Shown here piece by piece: positions 998-30,786 of a stretch of DNA of 64,000 bases. This DNA comes from Halostagnicola sp. A-GB9-2. GTDB lineage: Archaea; Halobacteriota; Halobacteria; Halobacteriales; Natrialbaceae. The notes under the pieces were generated by a model. It ran no database searches. It was not told the origin of the DNA and saw only the letters and a list, made by a program, of their open reading frames with translations. A program made the translations under genes and the position numbers. The stretch lies in contig NZ_JASJOC010000008.1 in NCBI RefSeq assembly GCF_030068615.1, positions 1-64,000 of the forward strand. Reading direction: 5' to 3'. Every line of letters starts with the position of its first letter. The first letter of the stretch is position 1.

Positions 998-2500
998 CTA
1001 TATTGATGGATCTTCAAGGTTCACATAGACAGTTTTTGGTTGTCGGTAATGGTCGAGAGCTTCTACCCCAAGATCATTACCGATTCCGGAATTTTTGAAA
1101 CCAGTATATGGACCTTCCGGGAGAATAGGGCCATACTCGTTAACATAGACGACGCCTGCTTCGAGATCAGCTGCAGCATTATGAACAAGATCGGTACGTT
1201 CGGTACCAATGCCAGCCGCTAAACCGTAGTCAGTGTCGTTAGCAAGAGCGATTCCTTCCTCGTAGGTTTCGAAGGTTTGAATCGTTTGGACAGGGCCAAA
1301 TACTTCTTCTTGGGCAATGCGCATCTCATTATCAACGTCAGTAAAGACTGTTGGCTCGTAGTACCAACCACTCGCAAGTTCCGGATCATCAGGGGCTCTG
1401 CCGCCAGCAGCGAGTGTCGCCCCTTCAGTAGTCGCTATTTCAACATACTCTTTGACAGTTTCGTACTGCTCTTGAGAAGTCAGCGGTCCCATTGTGGTAT
1501 CTGGGTCGAGCGGGTCACCAAGTCTATAAGACTCTGCCTTTGCGACAAAGCGGTCGGTGAACTCTTCAGCAATATCCTCATGGACGATTGCTCGAGAGAA
1601 AGCATCACAGATCTCGCCGGTGCTATAGTAGATTCCATCAGCGGCAGCGTCAACGACTTTCTCAAGATTAGCATCGGGAAAGACAATGAACGGTGACTTT
1701 CCGCCTAACTCAAGCGTAACCGGTGCAATGTGACTTGCGGCTGACTGCATTACTTTTTCACCGACCGCTGTGCTGCCCGTGAAAGACACTTTACGGACAT
1801 CCTCGTGCTTAGTTAGCACGTTACCGGCTTCTGACCCGGTTCCAGGGACAACGTTGAGGACGCCATCAGGCAAGATCCCAGCAGAGAGCTCAGCAATTCG
1901 AAGCGTCGTCAGTGGTGCGTCTACGGAGGGTTTGAGTACGGTAGCGTTGCCTGCCGCGAGTGCAGGTCCAAGCTTCCAAGCAGCCGACCAAATTGGGAAG
2001 TTCCATGGAGTGATCTGGCCGACGACTCCGTAGGGCTCATACCGTGTATACATGTGCAGATCTGTCTGAGCTGGCACCTTCCGGCCGTCTTGAACTGGAG
2101 ACCTACAGAGCGAAGCATAGTACTCTAAGGTGTCAATCGCGCCTTCAACCTCGCCACGGGCGTCTGACTTTGGTTTCCCTGTATCAATACACTCTAGTAG
2201 AGTTAATTCCTCAACGTGCTCGCTTAAGCTATCGATCCAATCGAACAGCATCCGGGAGCGTTCGGCTGGTTCCATCTCGCTCCATACGTCATCGTAACCC
2301 TTCCAGGCAGCTTCGACGGCATTGTTGATATCGTTTTCGCGACAGCGTGCCACTGTCGTAATCAGCTCATCGACGACTGGATCAACCGTTTCGAGGGAGT
2401 CCTCGGTTTGATAGGATTTTCCGCCGACCCAGGCATCAAACCGACTAACATCGGTTGCAGCGGCGTGTGCCTGAGAGTGCTGGTGCGTATTAGCTGTCAT
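998..2500 (-). CDS. NAD(P)-dependent aldehyde dehydrogenase, betaine-aldehyde-dehydrogenase-like
   Basis: A full-length (500 aa) member of the aldehyde dehydrogenase superfamily, which oxidises aldehydes to acids with NAD(P). Visible motifs: TPWNFP with the oxyanion Asn at 167, the dinucleotide segment FTGSTAVGEKV, catalytic Glu264 in VTLELGGKSP and catalytic Cys298 in GEICDAFSR. The stretch after the Cys (SRAIVHEDIAEEF) resembles betaine aldehyde and hydroxymuconic semialdehyde dehydrogenases. Its start overlaps the stop of the upstream Rieske ferredoxin gene by an ATGA, so the two are translationally coupled in an operon with an amidohydrolase. With glycine betaine genes nearby, a betaine aldehyde role is possible; with the amidohydrolase, a muconic semialdehyde role is equally possible. 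Family certain, substrate not. Confidence 0.9.
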   Translation of the reverse strand: MTANTHQHSQAHAAATDVSRFDAWVGGKSYQTEDSLETVDPVVDELITTVARCRENDINNAVEAAWKGYDDVWSEMEPAERSRMLFDWIDSLSEHVEELTLLECIDTGKPKSDARGEVEGAIDTLEYYASLCRSPVQDGRKVPAQTDLHMYTRYEPYGVVGQITPWNFPIWSAAWKLGPALAAGNATVLKPSVDAPLTTLRIAELSAGILPDGVLNVVPGTGSEAGNVLTKHEDVRKVSFTGSTAVGEKVMQSAASHIAPVTLELGGKSPFIVFPDANLEKVVDAAADGIYYSTGEICDAFSRAIVHEDIAEEFTDRFVAKAESYRLGDPLDPDTTMGPLTSQEQYETVKEYVEIATTEGATLAAGGRAPDDPELASGWYYEPTVFTDVDNEMRIAQEEVFGPVQTIQTFETYEEGIALANDTDYGLAAGIGTERTDLVHNAAADLEAGVVYVNEYGPILPEGPYTGFKNSGIGNDLGVEALDHYRQPKTVYVNLEDPSI

Positions 2501-2862
2501 AGAGTTATTATTATTTCATCGCCTTCAACTTTAACTGAATGTGACGGGAGGCGGACCTTATCTTTTGAAAGACATGATCCATCTGTAACATCATACTCCC
2601 AACCGTGCCATGGACAATTCAACACCTCTCCTTCTTTACACCAATCAAGATCAACTGTCAGTGAGTCTCGATCGAACTCGGCGTTAGACGTGCCCGTGAG
2701 TTTTCCTTCACAAACTGGACCTGATTGGTGGGCACACCAGTTGGTGTACGCGCGATGCTCGCCGTTTACGTAGAATACGGCAATTTCACGGCCCTCAATT
2801 TCGACGAGTTTTCGTTCTCCTTGGGATAGTTCGTCAGTTGTGGCAACAACATGCTCTTCCAT
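2497..2862 (-). CDS. Rieske-type [2Fe-2S] ferredoxin
   Basis: A 121-aa single-domain Rieske protein. The cluster ligands are visible as C43-A-H45 and C83-P-W-H86, within NWCAHQSGP and LNCPWHGWEY. Such small soluble Rieske ferredoxins pass electrons from a reductase to an oxygenase, or act as accessory redox domains. An insert of about 20 residues lies between the two ligand pairs. The gene sits between an amidohydrolase (2-bp gap upstream) and an aldehyde dehydrogenase (4-bp overlap downstream). It is the only small Rieske ferredoxin in the window, so it could serve either this operon or the Rieske oxygenases further on. No reductase is encoded beside it. Confidence 0.9.
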   Translation of the reverse strand: MEEHVVATTDELSQGERKLVEIEGREIAVFYVNGEHRAYTNWCAHQSGPVCEGKLTGTSNAEFDRDSLTVDLDWCKEGEVLNCPWHGWEYDVTDGSCLSKDKVRLPSHSVKVEGDEIIITL

Positions 2863-2864
2863 GG

Positions 2865-3941
2865 TTACAGTGAGAGGTTGAATGCCTCGGCAGGCGTTTC
2901 ATAGAGAACCTTCTCTCGCTCTTCTTCTGTGAAGTAGTTGCGAAGGTACTTATCGAGTTCTTCAACATGGTCAAAGTCCCAGTGCGGATAATCAGTTGCG
3001 AACATAAGGTTGTCTGCACCAATCATTCCGATGATTTGCTTCATGTGGGCTGGGTCGTTCGGTTCTCCGAGTGGCTGCGAGCCGAAGTAAAATGAGTCCC
3101 GAAGGTACTCTTCAGGACTTTTCTCCAACAAGGGCACTTCGCTTCGGCGCATATGGTATATCTTGTTCATTCGATGCATCATATAAGGCACCCATCCGAT
3201 TCCTGATTCAAGAAATACAAAGTCTAGCTCGGGGAATTTCTCGGGGACACCTTCCCCAATTAGACTAGACATTGTTGCCATCTGTTGCCAAGGGTGGCCC
3301 AATGTCTGGACTTCAAAGTAGTTATTAAATCCTCTATTGTGAATGGGAAAATCAAACATGAACTCGTCACCGTTTCCGTGGTACACTATTGGCAGACCGT
3401 TATCCTCAGCAGCCTGGAAGATAATGTCGTATTCTGGGTCGCCGAGTGGCGGATACTCCCCACTGGTTCCTACGTACACACCGACGATCTGATCTTCATC
3501 TCCAACTCGATCCAACTCTTCGGCTGCTTTGTCGGGCTTCTGTGTGGCAATTGAGGCGAGTCCAAGGAAGTCGTGGTCATCAAGGAACTGATCGAATAGA
3601 AGATTGTTGTATGCCTGCATCAGGTTAACCGCCAAGTCTGGCTGTGAGAACTTTCCTAACGGTTCAAACATATTGATAATGGGGTATTCGATATCAAACT
3701 CCTTCTGGAACGTTAGAAGATCACCTGCCGATGTGAAAGTAGAAAAGTGATCGTCTATTTTTCCTCCCATGCGCTGATCCCAGCTGCTCGAGGGAAAGAT
3801 GGGGTGTGGGGACTCCGTTATACTGGATCGATAGGGCTCATCCATGTACTTTGCTACCGTTTCTTCTTCGACCGTAATGTGGACGTCTGCGTCGATTACA
3901 GTCGTTTCTGATGTCGCATGCTTGGCTGTCTCTGACATCAC
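2865..3941 (-). CDS. amidohydrolase-2 family metal-dependent hydrolase/decarboxylase
   Basis: A 358-aa TIM-barrel protein of the amidohydrolase-2 group, which includes ACMSD-type decarboxylases. The N-terminal metal motif is VIDADVH (Asp19-x-His21, the D-x-H variant of H-x-H). Further candidate ligands are the His in VYHGNGDE, the His in LGHPWQQM and the Asp in FATDYPHWDFD near residue 318. It is the first gene of the three-gene minus-strand operon with the Rieske ferredoxin and aldehyde dehydrogenase. An ACMSD-like hydrolase beside a semialdehyde-type dehydrogenase suggests ring-cleavage product catabolism, but the substrate cannot be read from sequence. Two adjacent ATG codons are possible starts; a TATA-like element lies roughly 25-35 bp upstream (about 3965-3975). 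Confidence 0.85.
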   Translation of the reverse strand: MMSETAKHATSETTVIDADVHITVEEETVAKYMDEPYRSSITESPHPIFPSSSWDQRMGGKIDDHFSTFTSAGDLLTFQKEFDIEYPIINMFEPLGKFSQPDLAVNLMQAYNNLLFDQFLDDHDFLGLASIATQKPDKAAEELDRVGDEDQIVGVYVGTSGEYPPLGDPEYDIIFQAAEDNGLPIVYHGNGDEFMFDFPIHNRGFNNYFEVQTLGHPWQQMATMSSLIGEGVPEKFPELDFVFLESGIGWVPYMMHRMNKIYHMRRSEVPLLEKSPEEYLRDSFYFGSQPLGEPNDPAHMKQIIGMIGADNLMFATDYPHWDFDHVEELDKYLRNYFTEEEREKVLYETPAEAFNLSL

Positions 3942-6134: not shown

Positions 6135-7085
6135 GTGAGTGGAATGGGACCACTTGACACGAAAGCAAGTCGTAGAACTATACTCAAAACATGTGGTGTC
6201 GGAGCAGCAGGCATAACCACGATGGCAGGTTGTCTCGGCGACGAGGACGAAATTGCTGTAGCTTCCATGCAATGGAGTGAGGCTCGGCTCATGGGGTACT
6301 TGGGGTACGAAATGCTCCAAGAACATACAGACTACAGCGTCGGAGATGAAACTAGTCTAGGAGGCTCGAGACAGTGCTTTGAGGCCGTGCAAAATGAAGA
6401 AGTCGACCTCTATCACATCTATACAGGTGGTGCGTGGTCGGAACTCCCACCGCAACGAGATGACCTAATTTCCGATCCAGACGAACTCTATGAACGGGCA
6501 AGGGACGACTTAGAAGAAGAACATGGACTGGCCTACCTCGAACCCGCTTCGTTCGATAACACGTATGCAATCGGAGCTAGTTCTGAGTGGGTCAATGAAA
6601 CAGGAATCGAGACACTTAGTGAACTGGCCGACCACCTCGAAAACGGCAACATCGATATCACGATCGTCCTTGGTCCTGAGTTTCAGGAACGATCTGATGG
6701 CTGGCCGGGTTTGATTGAACACTATGATATTGAGGAACCAGCGGAGGATATCGATATCCAGAGTGTTGAAGCCGACCTCACGTATGAGATTCTTGGGGAA
6801 GACGAAGCAGACCTCGGAATGGTCTTCAGCACGAATCCGAATATTCAACAGTTCGATCTCACCGTCCTGGAAGACGACGAGGAATTTTTCTTGCCCTATA
6901 ATCCTGCCCCGTTAGTACACGGAGAAACCATCGAAGAATACGATATTGAGGAACCTCTCAACGAAGTTTCACGGTCGTTGGCGTCCGAAGAGGAGGTTCA
7001 GGAATTGAACGCCCGGATCGATCTTGAGGGTGAGGACCCGCAGGACGTTGCCAGAGATCACCTCGAAGGAAACAGCCTCATTTGA
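6135..7085 (+). CDS. glycine betaine/proline-type ABC transporter, substrate-binding lipoprotein
   Basis: A 316-aa OpuAC/ProX-family binding protein. The N-terminus carries a twin-arginine sequence (SRRTILK) and a lipobox (MAGC), so it is probably Tat-exported and lipid-anchored at the cell surface, as usual in haloarchaea. The mature part has the SMQWSEARLMGYLGYEMLQ start typical of quaternary-amine binding proteins. Start is GTG 6135; an ATG at 6144 is an alternative and keeps the signal. The permease starts 3 bp after its stop, and an ATPase and a second permease follow, giving a complete four-gene importer. Ligand (glycine betaine, proline, carnitine or choline) cannot be fixed from sequence. 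Confidence 0.9.
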   Translation: MSGMGPLDTKASRRTILKTCGVGAAGITTMAGCLGDEDEIAVASMQWSEARLMGYLGYEMLQEHTDYSVGDETSLGGSRQCFEAVQNEEVDLYHIYTGGAWSELPPQRDDLISDPDELYERARDDLEEEHGLAYLEPASFDNTYAIGASSEWVNETGIETLSELADHLENGNIDITIVLGPEFQERSDGWPGLIEHYDIEEPAEDIDIQSVEADLTYEILGEDEADLGMVFSTNPNIQQFDLTVLEDDEEFFLPYNPAPLVHGETIEEYDIEEPLNEVSRSLASEEEVQELNARIDLEGEDPQDVARDHLEGNSLI

Positions 7086-7088
7086 GCT

Positions 7089-7775
7089 ATGATAGGGTCA
7101 TATATCGAGTTTACACTCGACAATTGGCAGGACCTTCTACAACTCCTTATCGAACACATTGAACTTGTCGTCCAAACACTGATAATTGCGCTCCCACTCG
7201 GGATCTCGTTGGGAATTTTCATCGCCTATTATCAGCCTGCATCGCTCAGTGTTCTATGGGGCGCCGGTGTCGCGATGACAATACCGAGTCTCGCTCTATT
7301 TGGGTTGCTTGTTCCATTTCTCGGAATTGGTAATCCACCCGTCATTGTTGCTTTAGTGTTGTACGCACAGTTGCCGATCATCAGAAATACGTATATTGGG
7401 CTAACTGGCGTTGAGAAAGACATGATTGAAGCCGGCGAAGGAGTTGGAATGACCCGCTGGCAACGACTTCGACAAATACAGATCCCAGTTGCGCTTCCAG
7501 TGATTACTGCAGGTGTACGGAACGCAACTGTGATTCTAATCGGCGTAGCAACGGTTGGAGCTTACGTCGGTGCTGGTGGTCTCGGTGACTATATTTTCAC
7601 CGGGATCTATCAGGCGAACACCGAAATGATCGTTGTCGCAACAGTTGTTGTTTCGCTGTTAGCTCTGGTTTTCGACTACGGTCTTAAAATAATTGAACAA
7701 TTCCTGCAGCTTCAAAACGGCGAAGACGTCGCTCTCACAAGAGGAACAAAAGCAATTACAAAGGTGATAACATGA
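7089..7775 (+). CDS. glycine betaine/proline-type ABC transporter permease (first)
   Basis: A 228-aa ProW/OpuCB-type integral membrane protein with about six hydrophobic segments. The cytoplasmic EAA loop that contacts the ATPase is clear: MIEAGEGVGMTRWQRLRQIQ. It lies directly between the binding-protein gene and the ATPase gene, and its TGA stop overlaps the ATPase ATG by 4 bp. It pairs with the second permease at 8760 to form a heterodimeric channel, as in OpuC-type systems. Confidence 0.9.
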   Translation: MIGSYIEFTLDNWQDLLQLLIEHIELVVQTLIIALPLGISLGIFIAYYQPASLSVLWGAGVAMTIPSLALFGLLVPFLGIGNPPVIVALVLYAQLPIIRNTYIGLTGVEKDMIEAGEGVGMTRWQRLRQIQIPVALPVITAGVRNATVILIGVATVGAYVGAGGLGDYIFTGIYQANTEMIVVATVVVSLLALVFDYGLKIIEQFLQLQNGEDVALTRGTKAITKVIT

Positions 7776-8758
7776 TCAAGTTCGATAACGTCACGAAAAT
7801 CTACGCGGATTCAACAGTAGCGATTAGAGATATCAGCTTCGAAGTAGCTGAAGGGACGACAACTGTTCTTGTCGGACCGTCTGGTTGTGGTAAGACCACA
7901 ACAATGAAACTAGTCAATCGTCTTGAAGACCCAACGGAAGGAGCCGTTTACTACGATGGGACTAACACCCAGGAGATCGGTGTTACCGAACTGCGGCGTG
8001 ACATCGGATACGTCATTCAAGAGATTGGCCTGTTCAATCATATGACCGTTGGAGAAAATGTCGCTACAGTCCCGAAACTCAAGGGATGGGACGACGGGCA
8101 GATTGACGATCGGGTTGATAAACTACTTGAGTTGATGGCACTCTCACCAGAGGAATATCGGGATCAATATCCGCGCGAACTATCTGGTGGCCAGCGACAG
8201 CGTGTCGGCGTAGCACGAGCACTGGCTGCGGATCCGGATGTTCTGCTTATGGATGAACCGTTCGGTGCTTTAGACCCAATAACTCGTGCAGACTTGCAGG
8301 ATGAGTTCCTTGAGATTCAAGCAGAGATCAACACGACGATCCTCTTTGTCACACATAGTATTGACGAGGCACTGAAGATGGGTGATAAAATTGTGATTTT
8401 TGATGTTGGTGAATTAGTCCAGTACGATACACCGCGAAATATTTTGGAGAATCCGAATAGCGAGTTCGTACGCGACTTTGTCGGCGAGGACATTACGCTC
8501 AAGAAATTGAGCCTAATAAACGTCGATGAGATCATGAGGCCAACCAATGTTATCGAGGATACGACTGACCAAGATAGCAAGACCGCAGTGACGAACGGAG
8601 GTGAGGTGATGCACCATCTCGCTCCAGGGGACTCACTAAAGTCAGCACTGTCCACATTTGTCGAGTCAGACATCCAATCGCTTCCAGTTGTCGAAGATGA
8701 AGAAACCATTGGGGTCATTGACCGAGACGAGATCTACGAGATATACAACGGTGGCTGA
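7772..8758 (+). CDS. glycine betaine/proline-type ABC transporter ATP-binding protein
   Basis: A 328-aa ProV/OpuCA-type ATPase. Walker A is GPSGCGKTT, the ABC signature is LSGGQRQRVGVARAL and Walker B is DVLLMDEPFGALDP. The C-terminal region after about residue 245 includes one recognisable CBS-like unit (SLPVVEDEETIGVIDRDEI); in bacterial homologues CBS domains gate transport in response to ionic strength. The tail is shorter than in tandem-CBS relatives. It overlaps the first permease by ATGA and is followed after 1 bp by the second permease. Confidence 0.92.
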   Translation: MIKFDNVTKIYADSTVAIRDISFEVAEGTTTVLVGPSGCGKTTTMKLVNRLEDPTEGAVYYDGTNTQEIGVTELRRDIGYVIQEIGLFNHMTVGENVATVPKLKGWDDGQIDDRVDKLLELMALSPEEYRDQYPRELSGGQRQRVGVARALAADPDVLLMDEPFGALDPITRADLQDEFLEIQAEINTTILFVTHSIDEALKMGDKIVIFDVGELVQYDTPRNILENPNSEFVRDFVGEDITLKKLSLINVDEIMRPTNVIEDTTDQDSKTAVTNGGEVMHHLAPGDSLKSALSTFVESDIQSLPVVEDEETIGVIDRDEIYEIYNGG

Positions 8759-8759
8759 G

Positions 8760-9434
8760 ATGTCTGAACTTTACACACTAGTGGAAGGCGGGCAGTATTT
8801 GATAGAGAACTTTGATGAGTTCCTTACGCTCCTTCGTGAGCACATCATATTGGTCTTAGTCTCTGAACTGGCAGCAATTACCGTTGCAGTGCCACTCGGA
8901 GTTATTGCTGTCCGATACAACCGATTGAAGAGCTCCATCCTCTCAGTAGGAAATGTTGCACAGACAATTCCGACATTAGCAGTTATCGCACTAGCTTTCC
9001 CGATTTTTGGATTGGGATTTAATTCTGCAGTTATTGCGCTGTTTGTGTATGCACTACTACCTATTCTAACTAACACGATAGCTGGCCTGGAGCAAGTTGA
9101 TGAGAATACAATTGAGGCAGCAGAGGGAATGGGTATGACAAAATGGGAGGTATTACGAAAAATCCAGCTGCCAATGGCACTTCCAGTGATTTTCGCTGGC
9201 ATTAGAACAAGTGTGGTTATCACCGTTGGGACCGCGTACTTGGCGTTTTTCATCGGTGGGGGCGGACTTGGTGTTTGGGTTATTAGCGGTATTAACCTAT
9301 TCAATACTCCACAGATCCTTGCAGGAGCAATTCCAGGAGCACTTCTTGCGATTACACTTGATAGTGTGTTCGCTTTCATCGAACACCAAATTGGCGGAGA
9401 AGGACATCATGATCAATCGATAGCAACAGGATAA
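8760..9434 (+). CDS. glycine betaine/proline-type ABC transporter permease (second)
   Basis: A 224-aa membrane protein homologous to the first permease, with about six hydrophobic segments and the EAA loop NTIEAAEGMGMTKWEVLRKI. I chose the ATG at 8760, 1 bp after the ATPase stop; the open frame extends upstream to 8658, but that part overlaps the ATPase coding sequence and has no membrane character. It is the last gene of the importer operon. Confidence 0.9.
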   Translation: MSELYTLVEGGQYLIENFDEFLTLLREHIILVLVSELAAITVAVPLGVIAVRYNRLKSSILSVGNVAQTIPTLAVIALAFPIFGLGFNSAVIALFVYALLPILTNTIAGLEQVDENTIEAAEGMGMTKWEVLRKIQLPMALPVIFAGIRTSVVITVGTAYLAFFIGGGGLGVWVISGINLFNTPQILAGAIPGALLAITLDSVFAFIEHQIGGEGHHDQSIATG

Positions 9435-9777: not shown

Positions 9778-9822
9778 CGCCGCGACCGGCCATATAATGG
9801 GATTCTATATACCTGGTCAACT

Positions 9823-9832
9823 CTTTTTACTA
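9823..9832 (+). promoter_or_regulatory. TATA-like promoter element of the first Rieske oxygenase gene
   Basis: CTTTTTACTA lies 23-32 bp before the ATG at 9855, the spacing expected for a leaderless haloarchaeal transcript. Its presence suggests the cluster-less copy is still transcribed. Confidence 0.4.
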
Positions 9833-9854: not shown

Positions 9855-10865
9855 ATGACGCAGTGGAATGACGCCAAGACGAAGCCAGTTAGTTCGGACA
9901 TCACGGAGAAATCGAACGCGCTGCCGGCCCGATACTTCATCGACGACGATGTCTTCGAAATGGAGAAAGAGAAGGTGTTCGGCCAGTATTGGGTGTACGC
10001 CGGCCACGCCAACAGCATCAAGGAAGCAGGCCAGTACTTCACCCGGACCATCGGCGGCCGCGATCTGATCGTCGCTCGAGACGACAGCGGTGAGATCTGC
10101 GCCGTCGAGAACTTCTCGGCCCGCGATGGCGAGGAGCTCCTCGAAGACGCACCGATGACCGATCCCGAACACGTCGATCCGGACGCCCTCGTCGAACCGG
10201 AGTCGATTCATGTGGACAGTATCGGCCCGCTACTGTTCGTGAACCTGCGCAAGAATCCGATGCCACTGGCCGAGCAGGCCGGCGTAATGAAAGACCGCCT
10301 CGAGGCACTGCCCCTCGAGGAGTACGAACACGCGACTCGAATCGTTTCAGAAGTAGAGTGTAACTGGAAGGTGTTCTCGAGCAACTATTCGGAGTGCGAC
10401 CACTGCCAGGCCAACCATCAGGATTGGATCAAGGGTATCTCGCTCAACGAGTCCGAACTCGAGGTAAATGATTACCACTGGGTGCTCCACTACACGCACG
10501 CCGAAGACGTCGACGACGAGATGCGGATCCACGACGAACACGAGGCGCAATTCCACTACTTCTGGCCGAACTTCACGGTCAACATGTACGGCACCGCCGA
10601 CGGTTACGGCACCTACATCGTCGATCCGATCGACACCGACCGTTTCCAGCTCATCGCGGACTACTACTTCCGCGACAGTGAACTCTCCGAGGAGGAACGC
10701 GAGTTCGTTCGCACGAGCCGCCAACTGCAGGAAGAGGACTTCGAACTGGTCGAACGACAGTGGGAAGGGCTCAAAACCGGCGCGCTCGCACAGGCCCAAC
10801 TCGGCCCCAACGAACACACCGTCCACAAGTTCCACCAACTCGCACAGGAGGCCTACAACAGCTAA
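9855..10865 (+). CDS. Rieske-oxygenase-like protein lacking its [2Fe-2S] site
   Basis: A 336-aa paralogue of the intact Rieske oxygenase at 22781-23914. The N-terminal domain is present, but where the intact copy has its two cluster ligand pairs (CAH and CPYH) this copy reads ENFSARDGEELLEDAP and is about 41 residues shorter. The non-haem iron site survives: ECDHCQANH supplies the E-x2-H-x4-H pattern. From about residue 130 to the end the two proteins differ at only about five positions, while the N-terminal part is far more diverged, which suggests gene conversion. Without the cluster it should not be able to act as a normal Rieske oxygenase. It could be a decaying gene with an open frame, a regulatory or structural partner of the intact subunit, or a protein fed by a separate ferredoxin. 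ATG at 9855 matches the paralogue's start. Confidence 0.85.
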   Translation: MTQWNDAKTKPVSSDITEKSNALPARYFIDDDVFEMEKEKVFGQYWVYAGHANSIKEAGQYFTRTIGGRDLIVARDDSGEICAVENFSARDGEELLEDAPMTDPEHVDPDALVEPESIHVDSIGPLLFVNLRKNPMPLAEQAGVMKDRLEALPLEEYEHATRIVSEVECNWKVFSSNYSECDHCQANHQDWIKGISLNESELEVNDYHWVLHYTHAEDVDDEMRIHDEHEAQFHYFWPNFTVNMYGTADGYGTYIVDPIDTDRFQLIADYYFRDSELSEEEREFVRTSRQLQEEDFELVERQWEGLKTGALAQAQLGPNEHTVHKFHQLAQEAYNS

Positions 10866-11664: not shown

Positions 11665-12828
11665 ATGTCAATGAATGCTGTTGTTTACAAAGGCGAACGC
11701 GAGGTATCGGTCGAAGAAGTCGAGGAACCTCAAATCGAGCACCCGAACGATGTCGTGATCGACATCACGACGACGTGCATCTGCGGGTCCGACCTCCACA
11801 TGTACGAGGGGCGGACGGCCGCGGAGCCAGGGATCGTGTTCGGGCACGAAAACATGGGGACCGTAACCGAGGTCGGCGATGCGGTGAGTTCCCTCGAGGT
11901 GGGTGACCGCGTCGTCGCGCCGTTCAACGTCGCCTGCGGATTCTGTGAGAACTGCGAGAACGGCTACACGGGCTTCTGTACGAACGTCAATCCCGGGTTC
12001 GCCGGCGGCGCGTACGGGTACGTCGCGATGGGACCGTACCAAGGCGGTCAGGCCGAGAAACTCCGAATTCCGTACGCGGACTTTAACGCACTCAAACTGC
12101 CCGACGGAGACGTACACGAAGACTCGCTTGCACTGCTCGCGGACATCTTCCCGACCGGCTGGCACGGTACGGAACTCGCCAACCTCCAGTCCGGTGACTC
12201 CGTCGCTATCTACGGTGCCGGTCCGGTGGGCCTGATGGCGGCCTACAGCGCGAAGCTGAAGGGTGCCGCGGAGATTTATGTTGTCGACCGCGTTCCCAGC
12301 CGCCTCGAACTGGCTGAGGAACACTGTGACGCGACGCCGATCAACTTCGAGGAGGGCGATCCGGTCGAACAGATCAAGGACATCCACGGCGGGGGCGTCG
12401 ACAAGGGCGTTGACGCCGTCGGATACCAGGCTATCGACCCGGATAAGGAAGGCGACGATGCGTATGACCCCGCTCGTGAGAATCCTGCTGTCGTCATCAA
12501 TAATCTCATCAAGACGGTCCGCCCGACCGGTGAGCTCGGGATTCCGGGATTGTATGTCCCCGATGACCCCGGCGCACCTGACGACATGGCCGCACAGGGG
12601 CGTCTCGGCATCGACTTTGGCCTCCTCTTCGAGAAGGGGCAGGCGCTCGGTACCGGCCAGTGCAACGTCAAGGAGTACAATCGCGAACTCCGCGACATGA
12701 TCATTGAAGGGCGCGCCGATCCCAGCTGGGTCGTCTCACACCGCGTCGACCTGGAGGAAGCGCCGGAGATGTACGAGAAATTCGACAACCGCGAGGAAGG
12801 TGTCACGAAGGTCCTGCTGGAACCGTAA
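11665..12828 (+). CDS. zinc-dependent dehydrogenase, glutathione-independent formaldehyde dehydrogenase type
   Basis: A 387-aa medium-chain zinc alcohol dehydrogenase. Catalytic zinc ligands are visible in TTCICGSDLHMYEG (Cys38 or Cys40) and GHENMG (His61, Glu62); the structural zinc lobe has four cysteines in ACGFCENCENGYTGFC. The Rossmann motif is GAGPVGLMAAYSAKLKGA. The GGAYGYVAMGPYQGGQAE stretch and overall length match the dismutating, glutathione-independent formaldehyde dehydrogenases. In the context of N-demethylation it would oxidise free formaldehyde to formate, which the formate dehydrogenase at 31833-36685 could finish. A second ATG at 11671 is an alternative start. Other alcohol substrates remain possible. 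Confidence 0.85.
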   Translation: MSMNAVVYKGEREVSVEEVEEPQIEHPNDVVIDITTTCICGSDLHMYEGRTAAEPGIVFGHENMGTVTEVGDAVSSLEVGDRVVAPFNVACGFCENCENGYTGFCTNVNPGFAGGAYGYVAMGPYQGGQAEKLRIPYADFNALKLPDGDVHEDSLALLADIFPTGWHGTELANLQSGDSVAIYGAGPVGLMAAYSAKLKGAAEIYVVDRVPSRLELAEEHCDATPINFEEGDPVEQIKDIHGGGVDKGVDAVGYQAIDPDKEGDDAYDPARENPAVVINNLIKTVRPTGELGIPGLYVPDDPGAPDDMAAQGRLGIDFGLLFEKGQALGTGQCNVKEYNRELRDMIIEGRADPSWVVSHRVDLEEAPEMYEKFDNREEGVTKVLLEP

Positions 12829-15780: not shown

Positions 15781-16986
15781 CTACGGCTGCTCCCGAAGAT
15801 ATTCGACGACGGTCGCCGGTTCTTCGTCCAACCCACCGCCCTGCGCAAAGGTCGAACCGCCGCCGCCGCCACCGTCGAACTCCGCCGTGACATCGTCGAC
15901 GACCTCGCTGGCGTCAGGTTCGCCGGTCGTTGCGACGACCAGGAACGAATCACCGTTGACGCCGGTAAGTGCGATCACGTCCCCCGCGTCTCCAGCGAGG
16001 TTTCTGACTCGCTCGGAAACGTCGTTCGGACCCATCCCCTCGACTTCGCCGACTATCCAATCGTCACCGTTCTTCGATACGGCTTCCTCCGCTAGGGTCT
16101 CTATGTGTTCTTCCAACAGACGCTCGTGTAACTGGTCGATCTCCTCCTTGAGGGAAGCCTTCTCCTGTACGAGACTGGTAGCGCATTCCGAAAGATCCTC
16201 GACGCTCGTATCCATCGCGTCCGCCGCACGCTTGGCGTTCTTTCTCTCATCAATCCGCGTCTGGATGGCTGTGGGGCCGACAGCGTATTCAACGCGGACG
16301 AGGTCAGAACCCGGATTCGAGACGTCCAACACCGCTATTGGCCCGGCCTCGTTGGTATTTTGTACGTGCGTACCGCCACAGGCTGCGATATCCCACTCAT
16401 CGATCTCGACCACGCGAACTGTATCGGACTGTTCGCTGTTGTCGGTCAGATTGAAAATCACGTCGTCGCGCTGACGGGCGCGCTCACTGTCCATTTCATC
16501 CCACGTGATGTCCCGAGAGTCCCAGACTACTTCGTTTACCATTCGCTCGAACGTGATCGCGTTCACGTCGTCGGGATCGAGGTCAGTTTTGAAGTCCAGG
16601 CGAACTTTCTCCAATCCGATATCGAACCCGCCGTATCCGGGATCCACGAACAGTCTTCGTCCCGCACCGTACACCAAGTGACTCGCCGTGTGCGCTCGCA
16701 TACAGTAGGTCCGGAACTCTTCGTCGATGCGACCCGTGACAGCCTCGTCTGCCTCGAAGCCAGGCTCGGTTTCGAGAGTATGGATGATTACACCGTCCCG
16801 TTTCTGCACGTCGATGACGTCGATACCGTCCAGAGTTCCGCTGTCTGCCGGTTGCCCGCCTCCCTCCGGGTAGAAATACGTCTGGTCCAAGCGGACCCCA
16901 CGACCGTTTACGGAACGAACACTCGCCTCGAACTCCGTCACGTACGGCTCTTTGGCCGCTAGTTTGTTCGTCGAGTCGGTGGCCAT
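15781..16986 (-). CDS. alanyl-tRNA editing protein, AlaX-L type
   Basis: A 401-aa stand-alone editing protein that hydrolyses mischarged Ser- or Gly-tRNA(Ala). It has the AlaRS-like editing core with YFYPEGGGQPADSG, the zinc-binding His pair in RAHTASHLVYG and the Cys/His pair in ACGGTHV. A coiled region of about 60 residues (about 245-305) and a C-terminal DHHA1-like domain with the GGGGGGS run follow. I chose ATG 16986 because a TATA-like element lies 25-33 bp upstream; the frame extends to 17148 without typical sequence. High intracellular serine and glycine during betaine catabolism would increase alanyl-tRNA mischarging, so its presence among these genes makes sense, but that link is inference. 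Confidence 0.88.
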   Translation of the reverse strand: MATDSTNKLAAKEPYVTEFEASVRSVNGRGVRLDQTYFYPEGGGQPADSGTLDGIDVIDVQKRDGVIIHTLETEPGFEADEAVTGRIDEEFRTYCMRAHTASHLVYGAGRRLFVDPGYGGFDIGLEKVRLDFKTDLDPDDVNAITFERMVNEVVWDSRDITWDEMDSERARQRDDVIFNLTDNSEQSDTVRVVEIDEWDIAACGGTHVQNTNEAGPIAVLDVSNPGSDLVRVEYAVGPTAIQTRIDERKNAKRAADAMDTSVEDLSECATSLVQEKASLKEEIDQLHERLLEEHIETLAEEAVSKNGDDWIVGEVEGMGPNDVSERVRNLAGDAGDVIALTGVNGDSFLVVATTGEPDASEVVDDVTAEFDGGGGGGSTFAQGGGLDEEPATVVEYLREQP

Positions 16987-21468: not shown

Positions 21469-22266
21469 ATGGACGACGGAAAACAGGCCACGTTCGGCAC
21501 CGAAGGCGAACTCCGAACCGACGAGACGAACGCAACCGACGACGGCTCCGGCGCCGGGCCCGAGCACGACGACTTCGGCGACGAACTCGATGAGAACGAG
21601 ACCAAATCCGGGGCGAACCGCTACGTCGTCTCGAGTCTCCTCCAGAAGGCGGTTCGGCGATCCGACGAGGAAGTCGCGGCGTGGGCCGCATGGGAACTGG
21701 TCCGTTCGGGATACGCCTGGAACTTCTGGGACCGAATCACCCTCTACGTCGTCGAGGACTTGCGCGCCGGACACCAGGTCGCTCTCACGGTGGCTCGGTA
21801 CGAGGAACTGGCCCGCGAACGGTGGTCGGCGGACTCCTGGCGCGGACGGCTCTGTGCGGTCCACGCGGCATTGGCGGCCGCTCGAGCACCGTCGTCTCGG
21901 GAGGCCGCACACGCCGATGATTACTTCGGCGAACTCTCCGAAGAACGTGCGGTCGCACTCGAGGAGGGCCGCGAGCCCCGCTACGACTATCCCGTCGACA
22001 AACTCGAGCCCGGCGGAAAGTACGACGCTGTCTTCGACCAACACACCTACGAGGGGAAGCGGCTCGGCCGCGACGGAGCGTTCTTCAGGACTCACGGCGC
22101 GCGAGTCGGGCCCGAGGGCGAACCGGAACTGAGCCGCCAGTGGCGGATCCGGAGCATGCGACTCGAGGACCGTGACTACACCGAAGACGAACTCATTCGA
22201 GCGGTGGAACCGATCGATCCCGACGAGAAGTGGCTCAAGACGGACACGACCGATCGAGAGGAGTAA
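21469..22266 (+). CDS. conserved hypothetical, resembles the helical C-terminal part of RarA/MgsA
   Basis: A 265-aa acidic protein. After a low-complexity acidic N-terminus (about 45 residues) it has SSLLQKAVRRSDEEVAAWAA, LVRSGYAWNFWDRITLYVVE and ALTVARYEELARERW, a helical-pair pattern reminiscent of the oligomerisation region of replication-associated recombination protein A, but without the AAA+ domain. The rest (HADDYF, RYDYPVDKLEPGGKYDAVFD) is unfamiliar. It stands alone between decayed DNA and a zinc-ribbon protein gene. Function not known; the RarA likeness is weak. Confidence 0.55.
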   Translation: MDDGKQATFGTEGELRTDETNATDDGSGAGPEHDDFGDELDENETKSGANRYVVSSLLQKAVRRSDEEVAAWAAWELVRSGYAWNFWDRITLYVVEDLRAGHQVALTVARYEELARERWSADSWRGRLCAVHAALAAARAPSSREAAHADDYFGELSEERAVALEEGREPRYDYPVDKLEPGGKYDAVFDQHTYEGKRLGRDGAFFRTHGARVGPEGEPELSRQWRIRSMRLEDRDYTEDELIRAVEPIDPDEKWLKTDTTDREE

Positions 22267-22780: not shown

Positions 22781-23914
22781 TCACGAGTCGTAGGCCTCCT
22801 GAGCGAGCTGGTGGAAGCGGTGGACGGTGTGTTCGTTGGGGCCGAGTTGGGCCTGTGCGAGCGCGCCGGTTTTGAGCCCTTCCCACTGTCGCTCGACCAG
22901 TTCGAAGTCCTCTTCCTGCAGTTGGCGGCTCGTGCGAACGAACTCGCGTTCCTCCTCGGAGAGTTCACTGTCGCGGAAGTAGTAGTCCGCGATGAGCTGG
23001 AATCGATCGGTGTCGATGGGGTCGATGATGTAGGTGCCGTAGCCGTCAGCAGTGCCGTACATGTTCACCGTAAAGTTCGGCCAGAAGTAGTGGAACTGCG
23101 CCTCGTGTTCGTCGTGGATCCGCATCTCGTCGTCGACGTCTTCGGCGTGCGTGTAGTGGAGTACCCAGTGGTAATCGTTTACCTCGAGTTCGGACTCGTT
23201 GAGCGAGATCCCCTTGATCCAGTCCTGATGGTTGGCCTGGCAGTGGTCGCACTCCGAATAGTTGCTCGCGAACACCTTCCAATTACACTCTACTTCCGAG
23301 ACGATTCGAGTCGCGTGTTCGTACTCCTCGAGAGGCAATGCCTCGAGGCGGTCTTTCATTACGCCGGCCTGCTCGGCCAGTGGCATCGGATTCTCGCGCA
23401 GGTTCACGAACAACAGTGGGCCAATGGTGTCGACGTGAACGTCGTTCAGGGAGTTCTCTTCGGCGTCGTACTCTTGTACTTCCTCGTCCTCAAGATCGGG
23501 GTTCAGACTGGCTTCATCGAAGCTCTTGGGTGTGCTTTTGAGCTCCCCCTCGAGGTCGTACGTCCAGAGATGGTATGGACATTTGATTCGCTTTGCATCA
23601 CCGGGGTCGGTCATCGGCGTATCCTCGACCATCTTCGAGCCGCGGTGGGCGCAGACGTTGTCGAATGCCTTGATATCACCGTCGTGACCGCGGACGATGA
23701 TCAGTTGCCGGCCGCCAATCGTCCGGGTGAAGTACTGGCCTGCTTCCTTGATGCAGTTGGCGTGGCCGGCGTACACCCAGTACTGGCCGAACACCTTCTC
23801 TTTCTCTATCTCGAGGACCTCCGGGTCAGTAAAGTACTTCGCCGGTAACGCGTTCGACTTCTCCGTGATATCTGAACTCACTGCTTGCGTTTGTGATTCG
23901 TCCCACTGTGTCAT
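22781..23914 (-). CDS. Rieske non-haem iron oxygenase alpha subunit, candidate glycine betaine monooxygenase
   Basis: A 377-aa oxygenase with both redox sites. Rieske ligands: Cys88/His90 (NVCAHRGS) and Cys112/His115 (KCPYHLW). Non-haem iron site: Glu221, His224 and His229 in ECDHCQANH. The length and the EC-x2-C spacing fit the group that includes glycine betaine (GbcA-type), carnitine and choline oxygenases rather than ring-hydroxylating dioxygenases with separate beta subunits. It would demethylate glycine betaine to dimethylglycine plus formaldehyde, using electrons from a reductase that is not encoded in this window. Substrate is inferred from the surrounding demethylase, folate and transporter genes. 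ATG 23914 lies 23-32 bp after a TATA-like element. Confidence 0.85.
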   Translation of the reverse strand: MTQWDESQTQAVSSDITEKSNALPAKYFTDPEVLEIEKEKVFGQYWVYAGHANCIKEAGQYFTRTIGGRQLIIVRGHDGDIKAFDNVCAHRGSKMVEDTPMTDPGDAKRIKCPYHLWTYDLEGELKSTPKSFDEASLNPDLEDEEVQEYDAEENSLNDVHVDTIGPLLFVNLRENPMPLAEQAGVMKDRLEALPLEEYEHATRIVSEVECNWKVFASNYSECDHCQANHQDWIKGISLNESELEVNDYHWVLHYTHAEDVDDEMRIHDEHEAQFHYFWPNFTVNMYGTADGYGTYIIDPIDTDRFQLIADYYFRDSELSEEEREFVRTSRQLQEEDFELVERQWEGLKTGALAQAQLGPNEHTVHRFHQLAQEAYDS

Positions 23915-23936: not shown

Positions 23937-23946
23937 TATAAAAAAC
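23937..23946 (-). promoter_or_regulatory. TATA-like element of the intact Rieske oxygenase gene
   Basis: On the minus strand TTTTTTATAG lies 23-32 bp before the ATG at 23914, fitting a leaderless transcript. The sequence between it and the start is not conserved with the other copy. Confidence 0.45.
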
Positions 23947-24235
23947 AGTTCACCTGTGATATTGAACCTCACTATAAACTAGTGAAAACTTAGGGTGGGG
24001 ACGAATGGACGGGACATGATCCACAGAGGTGGGCGGAAGCGGATTTTCGATCTCGGTTCGTGATCAGTCGACGTGGTCCGAATGTAGTTACAATTTCTAT
24101 GACGGAGTTGCAGCGACAGTCATCCAGGGAGGGATCTCAGAACAGATCTGTCTCGTCGAGCGTGGTCCTCCTCAGCGAAAACCCCGTCGCTGATGGACAC
24201 ACTGCGGCGGTGGACGAGCACGGAGAATCGCGATA
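23947..24235. other. intergenic, no gene recognised
   Basis: About 290 bp between a gene start and the stop of the next minus-strand gene. No recognisable feature beyond the oxygenase promoter. Confidence 0.4.
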
Positions 24236-25465
24236 TCAGCCGCTGATAGCACTGCTGTGAATCCGGTTGGCGATCTCTTCACGAGTGACTTCCTGACCAG
24301 GGTCGTGCGAGATTCTATGCATGGCGAGATCTATCAGATCCAGTTGTTTTAGCAACTCCTTCGTACGTTCCCGGTCAAGGTCCAGTTGTCGCTGTATGTC
24401 GTACAGCGTCATCGACGACTCTATGGCACTTACCACCTTTTCGATCGTGAGGCCGTCCGGGAGACCGAGCCCGTCGGCGGCGAGCTGTGTGTTGGAGACG
24501 CTTTCGATCGGGTCATCTTCTTTCGCTGCTAGATCCTGTTCTGATGTCGATCCGGATGACGATTGTGCGTCCCCGGAACACTCTTTAGCGGCTGTCTGCT
24601 CGTCTGGCTTGTCGACTGTGTTATCAGCGTCTGTCGCCGCTATACTGCTGTTTGCCGTGGAGTCGTTCGTTTCGTCCTCGTCAGCCGTCTCGTACGACAC
24701 CGGTTGGTGGATGCCGGCCTCGGTCATGTATCGACGAACGGTCTCTGAGGTAACATCCATCTCGATGTGTTCAGCCATCTCTGCGAATGTGTCGCAGGAA
24801 TCGTACAAACACTGTAGATATTCGTCGTCTTCATACGGTGGGAGGTTCGCTGACCGTGCGGCGTCGAGTTTCTCCTCTACCTTGCTCTGATCGCTCGCCG
24901 ACTCATCAGTTGTTGCTTGGGTGTCCTCATGTTCACCGATACCGTCTGAGTCGTCAACTGCTTCTCCGCGGGTGACCGTCGCAGTACTCGCGTCGGCCGG
25001 TTCTGGATCGTCGCCGATCGCTTCGTCGCTCTCGGTAGTGACTGCCGCTGGATGGGATCGAGAGTTGAAGTCATGGGGGGATGATGATTCGGAACGCCGG
25101 TGCCCCTCCTCTGCCTCGAAAGTGAGTGTGAGCGTCGCCACCACGGTGCCGTCGTCGGTGACGCGGGCGTCTTTCCTGATAGTCGATGCATTTTCGGGAA
25201 CGTATTCGTCTAACTCCGGTAGCATCGACGGGGAGAACTCTATTTGTACCCCACCGTCGTCTGTGATCGCTGCTGCCTGCGGTGATGGTTCAGTTCCTGA
25301 TTTCTCTCCCGAACACAGGGAGAGGGGAACGTCGAGTGTGACCGTTAGCCCGGCTTCGGATTCCCGGTCGGACGTCTCCGCTTTGATACGTTGGATTCTC
25401 CCGCCATCCGATTCGTATCGCCCAATCACTTGGGAGAGTTCTTTGAATGAGGTACTTAATCCCAT
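24236..25465 (-). CDS. putative DNA-binding protein, haloarchaeal, function unknown
   Basis: A 409-aa protein in three parts. Residues 1 to about 120 form a beta-rich N-terminal domain (MGLSTSFKELSQVIGRYESD). The middle is an acidic low-complexity linker interrupted by YEDDEYLQCLYDSCDTFAEM and MDVTSETVRRYMTEAGIHQP, which looks like a helix-turn-helix. The C-terminus (MTLYDIQRQLDLDRERTKEL) looks like a second one. I chose ATG 25465 because a TATA-like element (25492-25503) lies 27-38 bp upstream. It resembles haloarchaeal proteins described only as hypothetical. A role as a transcriptional regulator is plausible but unproven. Confidence 0.6.
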   Translation of the reverse strand: MGLSTSFKELSQVIGRYESDGGRIQRIKAETSDRESEAGLTVTLDVPLSLCSGEKSGTEPSPQAAAITDDGGVQIEFSPSMLPELDEYVPENASTIRKDARVTDDGTVVATLTLTFEAEEGHRRSESSSPHDFNSRSHPAAVTTESDEAIGDDPEPADASTATVTRGEAVDDSDGIGEHEDTQATTDESASDQSKVEEKLDAARSANLPPYEDDEYLQCLYDSCDTFAEMAEHIEMDVTSETVRRYMTEAGIHQPVSYETADEDETNDSTANSSIAATDADNTVDKPDEQTAAKECSGDAQSSSGSTSEQDLAAKEDDPIESVSNTQLAADGLGLPDGLTIEKVVSAIESSMTLYDIQRQLDLDRERTKELLKQLDLIDLAMHRISHDPGQEVTREEIANRIHSSAISG

Positions 25466-25491
25466 GGTATTGTCAACCACTCTCTTCTTTG

Positions 25492-25503
25492 GGTATATAA
25501 GCA
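25492..25503 (-). promoter_or_regulatory. TATA-like element
   Basis: GCTTATATACCC on the minus strand, a near-ideal haloarchaeal TATA box, 27-38 bp before the ATG at 25465. Confidence 0.5.
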
Positions 25504-25638
25504 TAAATGCGGAATAAAGAATCTCTTTATATAGGGGGAGAAACTCAAGTAAAGATGATTCCCCTACTCCGTTTCGGGTGCGTGCTTCCCGGGCTGGACG
25601 AATACGGTGGCGGTCGCTGCAGGTCTTGCAGGAGGCTC

Positions 25639-27772: not shown

Positions 27773-28212
27773 GCAAGCGGAAGGTGGGGAGTTATCATGA
27801 AATAAGTTGTCGTTATTTCTTCGACAGACGCTATAATTTCGGGAAACTGGTGGAGAATTATGTCTTACTGGAGTCTCTATATGTGAATATCTCAGGATTC
27901 GGTTGATGGTTCGAGTAGCTGGAAAGGGAAGCCGTCACCCCGCGATTCAGCGTTACTACCGCTAAAAGTGATTCCGAAATACCATTTTGTGCTTCTTCGC
28001 GGCCTTGCCGATGCCTCTGACGACCGTTGGCGTGTCCATGCACGGAACCGAGCGCCGTCGCTTGGCGATGGTGCCCTAGGATAACAGCGATATTATGGGT
28101 ATCCACAGCCATCTCGAAACTCTAATCATAATCCTTCTACCAAGTTTTTGGTGAAGATCCGAGTGAGCGATAATTATATTTGTACTCGACTGGCACCACG
28201 AAGTGTACAATT
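27773..28212. promoter_or_regulatory. divergent regulatory region before the first demethylase
   Basis: 440 bp without a gene. TAATTATATT (28171-28180) is the probable TATA element of the demethylase gene at 28213, giving a short leader. No convincing operator palindrome was found. Confidence 0.4.
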
Positions 28213-30786
28213 ATGAACGCAGACGACAGTTTGCCGGACCAAGCGGACACTGTTATCGTCGGTGCCGGTATCGTCGGGTGCAACCTGGCGTATCAGCTCA
28301 CTGAACTTGGCCGAGACGACGTCGTCGTCGTCGATCAGGGACCGATGCCAACCACTGGTGGATCTTCCAGCCACGCACCGGGGATCATGTTCCAGACCTC
28401 CGAGTCGAAGATCCTCTCGAAGTTCGCCAAGTACAGCCGTAACCTGTACTCGGACCTGGAGGACGACAACGGCGTTCAGGCCTACAAAGAAGTCGGCGGC
28501 ATCGAGGTCGCGCGGAGCGACGAGCGGATGGACTACCTCCAGCGCCGTGTCGAGTGGGCCAAATCTTGGGGGCTCCCGAACCCGGAGATCCTTTCGCCCG
28601 AGGAAGTAGAAGAAAAGCTGCCGCTCGTCGACAGCGACGTGATCCAGGGTGGGTATTACTCCCCGACTGACGGCCAGGTGTCTGGCGTCGTCGCCTGCGC
28701 TGCCCTCGCCAGAGAAGCCATGGACCGGGGAGCGAAGTTCGTTCCGCACACCCGCACCGAAGACATCGAGACCGAGAACGGCTCGGTCAGCTCGGTTATC
28801 ACCGAAAACGGGACGATAGAGTGTAACGAAGTCGTCATCGCGACGAACATCTGGGCGCGTCAGCTGGGCGAGAAACTCGACGTTCACTTCCCGGTGACGC
28901 CGGTCGAGCACCAATACACGATGACCGAGTCGCTCGAGGAGCTCGCCGACAACCAGATCGACGTCAGCGATCACCCGCTGTACGAGAACTATAAGGGCGT
29001 CTCCGGTGATAAAGTCGACCGCCTGCTCGCGGGCCCCGACCGGCCGATCCTCCGCGATCAAGACAACGCGATGTACTTCCGGACGCACGGGGACTCCTAC
29101 GGAATCGGGTCGTACAACCACGAACCCGTCGTGCCCGACCCGCGGGAGCTCGGCGGCAACGAGGAAGACGCCGAACAGGGCTCGATCCACGAGTTCACCG
29201 AGTACCATATGAACAACGCGACGCACCCGGACCGGCCGGACAAGGCGCCCCGCCAGGCCAGCGACGAACTGCTGCCAGCCACGGAGGGGAGGGAACTCGA
29301 ACACAAGTACAACGGCATGTTCGCGGAGTCCCCCAACGGTCTGCCAGTGATGGGTCCCGTCCAGAAGTACGACGGTCTCTGGTCCGCGGCCGCCATCTGG
29401 GTCACTCACGCCGGCGGCGCCGGCAAGGTGCTCGCCGAGTGGATGGAAAACGGTATCCCCCGCCTTCCCGACGGACCGATCGACCTCCGGCACTGCAACG
29501 TCAATCGGTTCGACGCCCACGAAGGCAGCTGGGACTTCGCGCGAGACATCGGCGGCGAGGAGTACCGCATCGTCTACAACATCATGCACCCGAAGTGGGT
29601 CTGGACAGATCATCAGCGCGATATCCGCCGCACGCCGATGTACCACAGCCACAAGGAACTCGATGCCGAGCTCTGGGCGGAAGCCGGTTGGGAGGAACCG
29701 CAGTGGTTCGAGTCCAACACCGACCTGCTCGCTGAGTACGGCGAGCAGATCCCAGACCGTGAGGGCTGGGAGGGCAAGTACTGGTCACCCATCGAGGGCG
29801 CGGAGGCGCTCCACGTCCGCAATAAGGTCGGCCTCCACGACATGACGTCGTTCAACAAGATGGAGGTCGTCGGAAGCGACGCCGGAGACTTCGTCCAGTG
29901 CCTCTCTACGAACGACATGAACCTCGACGTTGGCGACGTCCGATACACCTTGATGTGTAACGAGGAAGGCGGCGTCCGCGCCGACATCACCGTCACGCGC
30001 GTTGACGACGACCGTTACCTCCTCCTGACGACGGGTCGCGAGGTCGGAAACAACCACGTCGCGTGGGTTCGCGAGCAGTCCCCCGAGGACGTGGTCGTCA
30101 ATGACGTCACCTCCAGCCTGGCGGCGATGGTTTGTACCGGTCCGAACGCGCGGAAGGTACTCTCGAAGGTGACGGACGCAGATCTCTCTGACGAGGCGTT
30201 CCCGTTCTTCACGGGTCAGCAGTTCTTCATCAAGAACGTGCCCGTCACCGCGCTCCGGGTGTCCTACGCCGGCGAACTCGGCTGGGAGCTGTACACGCCC
30301 TCCGAGTACGGTGAGCAGCTCTGGGAGCACCTCATGGATGCCGGTGAAGAGTACGACCTTCGCCCGTACGGCAACGGCGCGTTGAACGCCTTGCGTATCG
30401 AGAAGGGCTTCCGGCTGTGGGGCGAGGATCTCCACACCGAGCACAATCCCTACGAAGCGGGCCTCGGGTGGGCCACCGATCTGGAGACCGACTTCATCGG
30501 GAAGGAGGCGGTCGTCGAAGCGGCTGAGGGGAACAACATCGACCACAAGGTCGCGTGTCTGACCCTTGACGACGAAGCGGCGACGATCCTCCCTCACCGT
30601 CCGATTTTCGACGGTGATGAACGGATCGGCTACGTACACAGCACCGAGTACGGGTACACGGTCGGCGCCTGCGTCATTTACACGTACCTCTCACCGGAGT
30701 ACGCGGAGCCCGGGACCGACCTCGAGATCCTGTACGAGGGCGAACGGTACGACGCCACCGTTCGCGAGGAACCCCTACTCGATTAA
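28213..30786 (+). CDS. dimethylglycine/sarcosine dehydrogenase-like FAD-GcvT protein (first copy)
   Basis: An 857-aa fusion of a DAO-type FAD oxidoreductase (about residues 1-430) and a GcvT-like THF-binding domain (about 430-857). The dinucleotide motif is VIVGAGIVGCNLAYQL. His54 in TGGSSSHAPGIMFQT sits where dimethylglycine and sarcosine dehydrogenases carry covalently bound FAD. The GcvT part ends with RVSYAGELGWELYTP and EKGFRLWGEDL. These enzymes oxidise an N-methyl group and transfer it to THF as methylene-THF. A paralogue lies at 50165; together they could handle dimethylglycine and sarcosine. ATG 28213 is chosen by homology of the N-terminus and the TATA spacing. Which substrate each uses is not readable. 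Confidence 0.9.
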   Translation: MNADDSLPDQADTVIVGAGIVGCNLAYQLTELGRDDVVVVDQGPMPTTGGSSSHAPGIMFQTSESKILSKFAKYSRNLYSDLEDDNGVQAYKEVGGIEVARSDERMDYLQRRVEWAKSWGLPNPEILSPEEVEEKLPLVDSDVIQGGYYSPTDGQVSGVVACAALAREAMDRGAKFVPHTRTEDIETENGSVSSVITENGTIECNEVVIATNIWARQLGEKLDVHFPVTPVEHQYTMTESLEELADNQIDVSDHPLYENYKGVSGDKVDRLLAGPDRPILRDQDNAMYFRTHGDSYGIGSYNHEPVVPDPRELGGNEEDAEQGSIHEFTEYHMNNATHPDRPDKAPRQASDELLPATEGRELEHKYNGMFAESPNGLPVMGPVQKYDGLWSAAAIWVTHAGGAGKVLAEWMENGIPRLPDGPIDLRHCNVNRFDAHEGSWDFARDIGGEEYRIVYNIMHPKWVWTDHQRDIRRTPMYHSHKELDAELWAEAGWEEPQWFESNTDLLAEYGEQIPDREGWEGKYWSPIEGAEALHVRNKVGLHDMTSFNKMEVVGSDAGDFVQCLSTNDMNLDVGDVRYTLMCNEEGGVRADITVTRVDDDRYLLLTTGREVGNNHVAWVREQSPEDVVVNDVTSSLAAMVCTGPNARKVLSKVTDADLSDEAFPFFTGQQFFIKNVPVTALRVSYAGELGWELYTPSEYGEQLWEHLMDAGEEYDLRPYGNGALNALRIEKGFRLWGEDLHTEHNPYEAGLGWATDLETDFIGKEAVVEAAEGNNIDHKVACLTLDDEAATILPHRPIFDGDERIGYVHSTEYGYTVGACVIYTYLSPEYAEPGTDLEILYEGERYDATVREEPLLD

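Follow-up and report, generated by a model that had tools for sequence, protein, structure and literature searches.

Rieske oxygenases are thought to pass an electron between neighbouring subunits, and those of the group V type, of which Stc2 is a further member, assemble head to tail into trimers, the iron of each subunit being reduced by the cluster of the adjoining one. For CntA, the distance between cluster and iron is 44 Å within a subunit and 12.2 Å across the interface, where E205 forms the bridge (PMC7948474). In this group a tyrosine binds the quaternary ammonium, a glutamate bridges the two metal sites, and a CxxC pair lies by the iron site (PMC7948474, PMC10952381). An oxygenase component without a Rieske domain is represented by NdmC of the methylxanthine N7-demethylase NdmCDE, which draws on a cluster carried by a separate polypeptide (PMC4408171, PMC10380055), namely the reductase NdmD, and which needs the GST-like protein NdmE. 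Two distinct alpha-type subunits per assembly are found in NdmA/NdmB and other alpha3-alpha'3 oxygenases (PMC10380055, PMC12445004), and a second subunit lacking a Rieske cluster is a feature of the alpha3-beta3 ring-hydroxylating dioxygenases. NdmC and NdmAB are partial precedents for the locus described here, whereas reciprocal loss of metal sites between paralogous subunits appears to be new; no description of it for paralogous alpha subunits was found in the searchable open-access literature.

The window (the whole analysed stretch of 64,000 nucleotides from the haloarchaeon Halostagnicola sp. A-GB9-2) contains two paralogous oxygenase genes. The gene at 9855..10865 on the plus strand encodes a clusterless oxygenase subunit of 336 aa, composed of a reduced, ligand-free Rieske-like N-terminal domain and an intact catalytic domain. 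Its sister, at 22781..23914 on the minus strand, encodes an intact Rieske oxygenase of 377 aa with four Rieske ligands and the iron site. The first-pass annotation had given the location of this intact copy correctly, without a strand; the plus-strand reading of the interval is not the gene. It had also reported that both cluster ligand pairs and about 41 residues are missing from the shorter protein, with which translation and alignment agree. The net difference between the paralogues is 41 residues, and in their alignment the ligands C88 and H90 of the sister correspond to S88 and R90 of the clusterless protein (residues 86-91 at 10110..10127, plus strand, read N-F-S-A-R-D versus N-V-C-A-H-R in the intact copy), while C112 and H115 fall inside the deleted stretch. 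The canonical alpha-subunit signature CxH...CxxH is absent from the clusterless protein. The Pfam model Ring_hydroxyl_A matches both proteins; the Rieske model scores above its cut-off for the sister only (19.3 bits for the clusterless protein, cut-off 20.3).

The catalytic domain was likewise found as first described, with E-x2-H-x4-H kept and the C-terminal region almost unchanged. The iron-site motif Y178-S-E180-C-D-H183-C-Q-A-N-H188 (10386..10418, plus strand) and D295, the carboxylate ligand of the mononuclear iron (10737..10739, plus strand), are invariant across the clusterless genes. The window's protein thus retains the complete 2-His-1-carboxylate site (H183, H188, D295) with its bridging carboxylate (E180), as well as the group V cysteine pair C181/C184 and the substrate-binding Y178; the motif contains the counterparts of Y203, the bridging E205, C206, C209 and the two histidine ligands of CntA (PMC7948474, PMC10952381). 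At the DNA level the last 653 bp are 94% identical to the sister, and the first 375 bp, a segment starting about 60 bp before the ATG, are 75% identical. A single-chain AlphaFold2 model of the clusterless protein (pLDDT 84, pTM 0.86) has the oxygenase fold, and its best match in the PDB was CntA (TM 0.78), as for an alpha subunit.

CntA and the group V quaternary-ammonium oxygenases are the nearest solved structures to both subunits by sequence and fold, sharing the motif Y-x-E-C-x-H-C-x3-H, the bridging glutamate, the cysteine pair and a betaine-type context. CntA is, however, a homotrimer with both metal sites in each subunit, whereas here the sites are divided between paralogues, fully so in Natronococcus. 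As in NdmC, the oxygenase component lacks a Rieske cluster; in contrast to NdmC, part of the Rieske fold is retained, the conserved neighbours include neither a reductase bearing an additional Rieske domain nor a GST-like partner, and the part of candidate donor falls to a paralogous alpha subunit, which in one genus reciprocally lacks the iron site. The likeness to NdmA/NdmB would lie in the two different alpha-type subunits of one assembly, but NdmA and NdmB each retain both metal sites. The beta subunit of alpha3-beta3 enzymes is an unrelated structural protein without catalytic iron, whereas the clusterless protein is a paralogue of the alpha type whose iron site is intact. Judged from sequence, the clusterless gene would encode the subunit that carries out catalysis at a mononuclear iron, within a hetero-oligomeric Rieske oxygenase built from two paralogous alpha-type subunits, a reading to which we assign a probability of roughly 0.73; the heteromer itself is what we infer.

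Wherever the clusterless gene is intact, the genome also has a Rieske-bearing sister no more than about 15 kb away; many loci have it on the same strand, a few kb upstream. The two genes of the window are about 12 kb apart and convergent and do not form one operon, which counts against a common enzyme. In Haloarcula amylovorans a sister-type gene occurs alone. The pair in the window shares a promoter element, ATATNNCNGGTNAACNNTTTTT, located just upstream of the clusterless gene (9807..9828, plus strand) and, in the same pattern, upstream of the sister (23941..23962, minus strand). A TATA-box-like sequence (9792..9799, plus strand) has a conserved position in the orthologues, and the TATA-like box and the element behind it keep a near-constant spacing to the start codon in both clusterless and sister genes; some loci vary. 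The exact pattern (one optional base allowed) had just two matches across the 4.68-Mb genome, one upstream of each gene of the pair; the reversed control pattern gave no match in the same genome. The retained promoter, at first called plausible, is therefore better founded than had been stated.

In a set of 125 genomes from the same family, 15 contain a full-length clusterless orthologue (75-100% identity) and one, Haloterrigena salina, contains a frame-broken copy. A class-wide sample yielded three further genomes, and searches of named genomes added Halegenticoccus soli, Halogranum amylolyticum and Haladaptatus halobius. The first-pass annotation had named a lack of homologues elsewhere among the signs that would speak against its reading; in total, at least 21 haloarchaeal genomes from several families carry a full-length orthologue. 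Full-length genes are also present on plasmid records of six species (Haloterrigena turkmenica, H. salifodinae, Natrinema sp., Natronococcus sp. CG52, Halocatena salina and Haloprofundus salinisoli), which overlap partly with the genomes already counted, are in several cases finished megaplasmids, and rule out an artefact of a single strain or assembly; their annotation is merely 'SRPBCC family protein'. Regarding the 18 orthologues that were aligned, S88, the same deletion and the complete iron site were found in all, R90 in 17 (H90 being kept in one) and a length of exactly 336 aa in 17, the remaining one being longer at its C-terminal end.

The broken copy of Haloterrigena salina shows that at least one strain can do without the clusterless gene, which counts against the proposed role. 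In the same genome (JCM 13891 contig_57; L109, L051:16440-17384) the sister has a separate in-frame deletion that joins YFTR to HLWTYD and removes both Rieske ligand pairs; this is either an independent origin of a clusterless protein or a draft-assembly artefact at recombining paralogues.

Selection was estimated as pairwise Nei-Gojobori dN/dS using our own script, and medians are given. The clusterless genes gave 0.08-0.14 for the catalytic half and 0.27-0.29 for the remnant of the Rieske domain, compared with 0.067 and 0.136, respectively, for the intact sisters; a short stretch at the deletion gave about 0.5 from few sites and is near-relaxed. The Rieske remnant is thus under weaker constraint than a working Rieske domain, yet is far from neutral. 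The homologue search and dN/dS estimate proposed with the first-pass annotation therefore yielded clusterless homologues under purifying selection instead of neutral decay. An early pseudogene, one of the three options raised at that stage, would be expected to evolve neutrally and to show a disrupted frame; it is rejected on the conservation of the gene, its constant reading frame and the regional dN/dS of 0.08-0.29 (the short linker excepted), a single broken copy being the only one seen.

Regarding phylogeny, the N-terminal columns place the clusterless genes in a single clade in every bootstrap tree (support 99/94; 99/93 with an outgroup). In the catalytic columns they intermix with the sisters of the same genomes, and well-supported branches force at least four changes of label. 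Synonymous distances agree: in all 11 genomes compared, the two catalytic halves of one genome lay closer together (dS 0.20-0.56) than the clusterless one did to its counterpart from any other genome (0.36-0.99), and for the N-terminal part the pattern was reversed in 10 of 11. Gene conversion therefore homogenises the catalytic halves while the N-terminal domains stay distinct. The near-identical C-terminal halves had the appearance of a recent duplication, which is ruled out by the one old N-terminal clade; the similarity is due to conversion.

Conversion also bears on the option of a regulatory partner in the oxygenase trimer, according to which the clusterless subunit would be non-catalytic, entering trimers of the intact enzyme to lower or tune its activity, with a catalytic half that is largely a by-product of conversion. 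The sister is intact in most genomes, and conversion alone would be enough to give the clusterless protein an apparently intact iron site. It could not do so in Natronococcus, because the catalytic half of the sister is degenerate there. In six genomes of this group (L045-L050, including N. jeotgali and N. amylolyticus) the sister's motif ECDHCQANH is deleted or replaced, while C88, H90, C112 and H115 are all present and the linker is almost invariant. The dN/dS of these six sisters was 0.14 for the Rieske domain, 0.12 for the linker and 0.615 for the catalytic half. The clusterless genes of the same six genomes have an invariant iron site and a dN/dS of 0.139 in the catalytic half, so that catalysis there, if there is any, must fall to the clusterless protein. 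A purely regulatory subunit is on this evidence quite improbable. Of the three options first raised, that of a partner in the trimer is best supported, by the Natronococcus sisters without an iron site; the regulatory part of it gives way to a catalytic division of labour.

A search of the six Natronococcus genomes for a third close homologue (E<=1e-8) returned none beyond the pair, save a partial match of 35% in one genome; the missing iron site is therefore not made up for by another close relative. The catalytic halves of the six sisters have open frames without any stop codon (0 of 6). Neutral simulation of a 188-codon stretch left no stop codon in about 1.5-7% of runs per lineage when 0.2-0.3 substitutions per site were allowed, a level about half that of the pairwise dS (0.46-0.66) between most of these sister genes. 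The six sisters form one clade, however, so that loss of the iron site is a single event, which counts against the proposed division of labour; in a further genome of the genus (G094) the sister is still intact.

These data also bear on the broader possibility that the clusterless gene, together with the Natronococcus sister, is decaying after duplication. Such decay would account for the lost cluster ligands, for the relaxed selection on the catalytic half of the Natronococcus sister, and for Haloterrigena salina with one frame-broken copy and a second copy carrying its separate deletion. It is made very improbable by the constant length, invariant iron site and purifying selection, by a promoter and synteny kept across several families, and by the absence of stops in the Natronococcus sisters set against the simulated frequencies.

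In the catalytic reading, a cluster-free subunit can work beside a cluster-bearing one because the electron passes between subunits in the trimer. The clusterless subunit would bind substrate and O2 at its own iron, and the sister (23914-22781) would deliver the electron from its Rieske cluster across the interface by way of the bridging glutamate E180. In the window's organism, where the iron site of the sister is intact, mixed trimers would be optional additions to a self-sufficient homotrimer. In Natronococcus each homotrimer would be short of one metal site and the mixed form would be the only possible active form, and apparently obligate. It is rather more probable than its opposite that this amounts to a complementary split, in which an iron-only and, in Natronococcus, a cluster-only paralogous alpha subunit would allow catalysis solely at their interface, the window's organism representing an intermediate stage. 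Two points count against the mixed enzyme. A trimer of cluster-only and iron-only subunits would be wasteful, because a 2:1 or 1:2 composition gives just one productive interface, and the self-sufficient sister of most genomes leaves the benefit of the clusterless subunit there unexplained.

If true, a natural pair with one metal site per subunit would be an evolutionary test of the inter-subunit electron rule, and would offer mechanistic work an enzyme whose electrons follow one defined route. The series from a self-sufficient enzyme, through an enzyme with an added clusterless copy, to a complementary pair would illustrate how homo-oligomers become obligate hetero-oligomers.

The clusterless subunit might instead need no Rieske cluster and use hydrogen peroxide directly. 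With NADH and reductase left out, CntA can run such a peroxide shunt (PMC10952381), and the clusterless protein has a complete iron site. This is nonetheless highly unlikely, as it leaves unexplained the constant Rieske-bearing sister, the shared promoter and the strong purifying selection on the Rieske half of the Natronococcus sister.

The proposed hetero-oligomeric oxygenase is surrounded by genes that suggest its reaction. An OpuAC-type quaternary-ammonium ABC transporter (binding protein, permeases and ATPase; 6135..9434, plus strand) precedes the clusterless gene, and a zinc dehydrogenase (11665..12828, plus strand), nearest to glutathione-independent formaldehyde dehydrogenase and probably serving formaldehyde disposal, follows it. 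A fusion of an FAD oxidoreductase with GcvT, of 868 aa and resembling dimethylglycine and sarcosine dehydrogenases (28180..30786, plus strand), has relatives near the pair in most loci; BCCT transporters, a formyltetrahydrofolate deformylase, a FolC-FolP-like fusion and FolD are further neighbours in the window or related loci. This context and the group V signature (PMC7948474, PMC10952381) suggest N-demethylation of a betaine-like quaternary ammonium compound with release of formaldehyde as the probable reaction, and the locus would accordingly point to a probable haloarchaeal breakdown route for such compounds. Two neighbours gave no match in Pfam and NCBIfam searches: a protein of 265 aa (21469..22266, plus strand), encoded between or beside the oxygenase pair in 11 loci examined, and one of 422 aa (24236..25504, minus strand), whose gene adjoins the sister in 19 loci examined, including those of Natronococcus.

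The neighbourhood also bears on the remaining option, that of an external ferredoxin, for which the stand-alone Rieske ferredoxin at 2497..2862 (minus strand) had been named. More generally, the clusterless subunit could be a stand-alone oxygenase in which an external carrier, either a Rieske ferredoxin or a Rieske-bearing reductase, replaces its own cluster in the manner of NdmC. A Rieske-less oxygenase fed by the Rieske domain of a different protein is already established in NdmC (PMC4408171, PMC10380055), the genome encodes other Rieske proteins besides the ferredoxin in the window, and the Natronococcus sister itself could serve as carrier. The ferredoxin is, however, not conserved with the clusterless gene. 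Close relatives (67% or more) were found in 2 of the 15 other clusterless-gene genomes of the family (3 of 16 including the window's), no match at E<=1e-20 was found in 6 of the 16, and the ferredoxin is absent from the conserved neighbourhood. This distribution rules it out as a general partner and weakens the original suggestion. A stand-alone enzyme is unlikely in any form, since no GST-like NdmE, NdmD-like or Rieske-reductase gene is among the conserved neighbours and the constant companion is the paralogous sister. The ferredoxin belongs to a tightly packed block (998-3941, minus strand) with an aldehyde dehydrogenase and an amidohydrolase, in which the ferredoxin frame shares 4 bases with that of the dehydrogenase; the block probably serves some other system.

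Further observations concern the wider family. A related clade of single-copy intact oxygenases (L053-L071 and L110-L131), about 72-77% identical to the sister, occurs in other haloarchaea without a clusterless partner and has its own, different upstream sequence. An AlaX-like gene by the pair is intact in the window (15781-17148) and appears to be in pieces in Haloterrigena genomes (L034 4758-6031, L051 4768-5223). Elsewhere in the genome of the window's organism, a fragment that shares 79% identity with residues 219-274 of the clusterless subunit and contains an in-frame TGA (G000:C33:143652-143819, plus strand; L004) is a degenerate remnant of the family.
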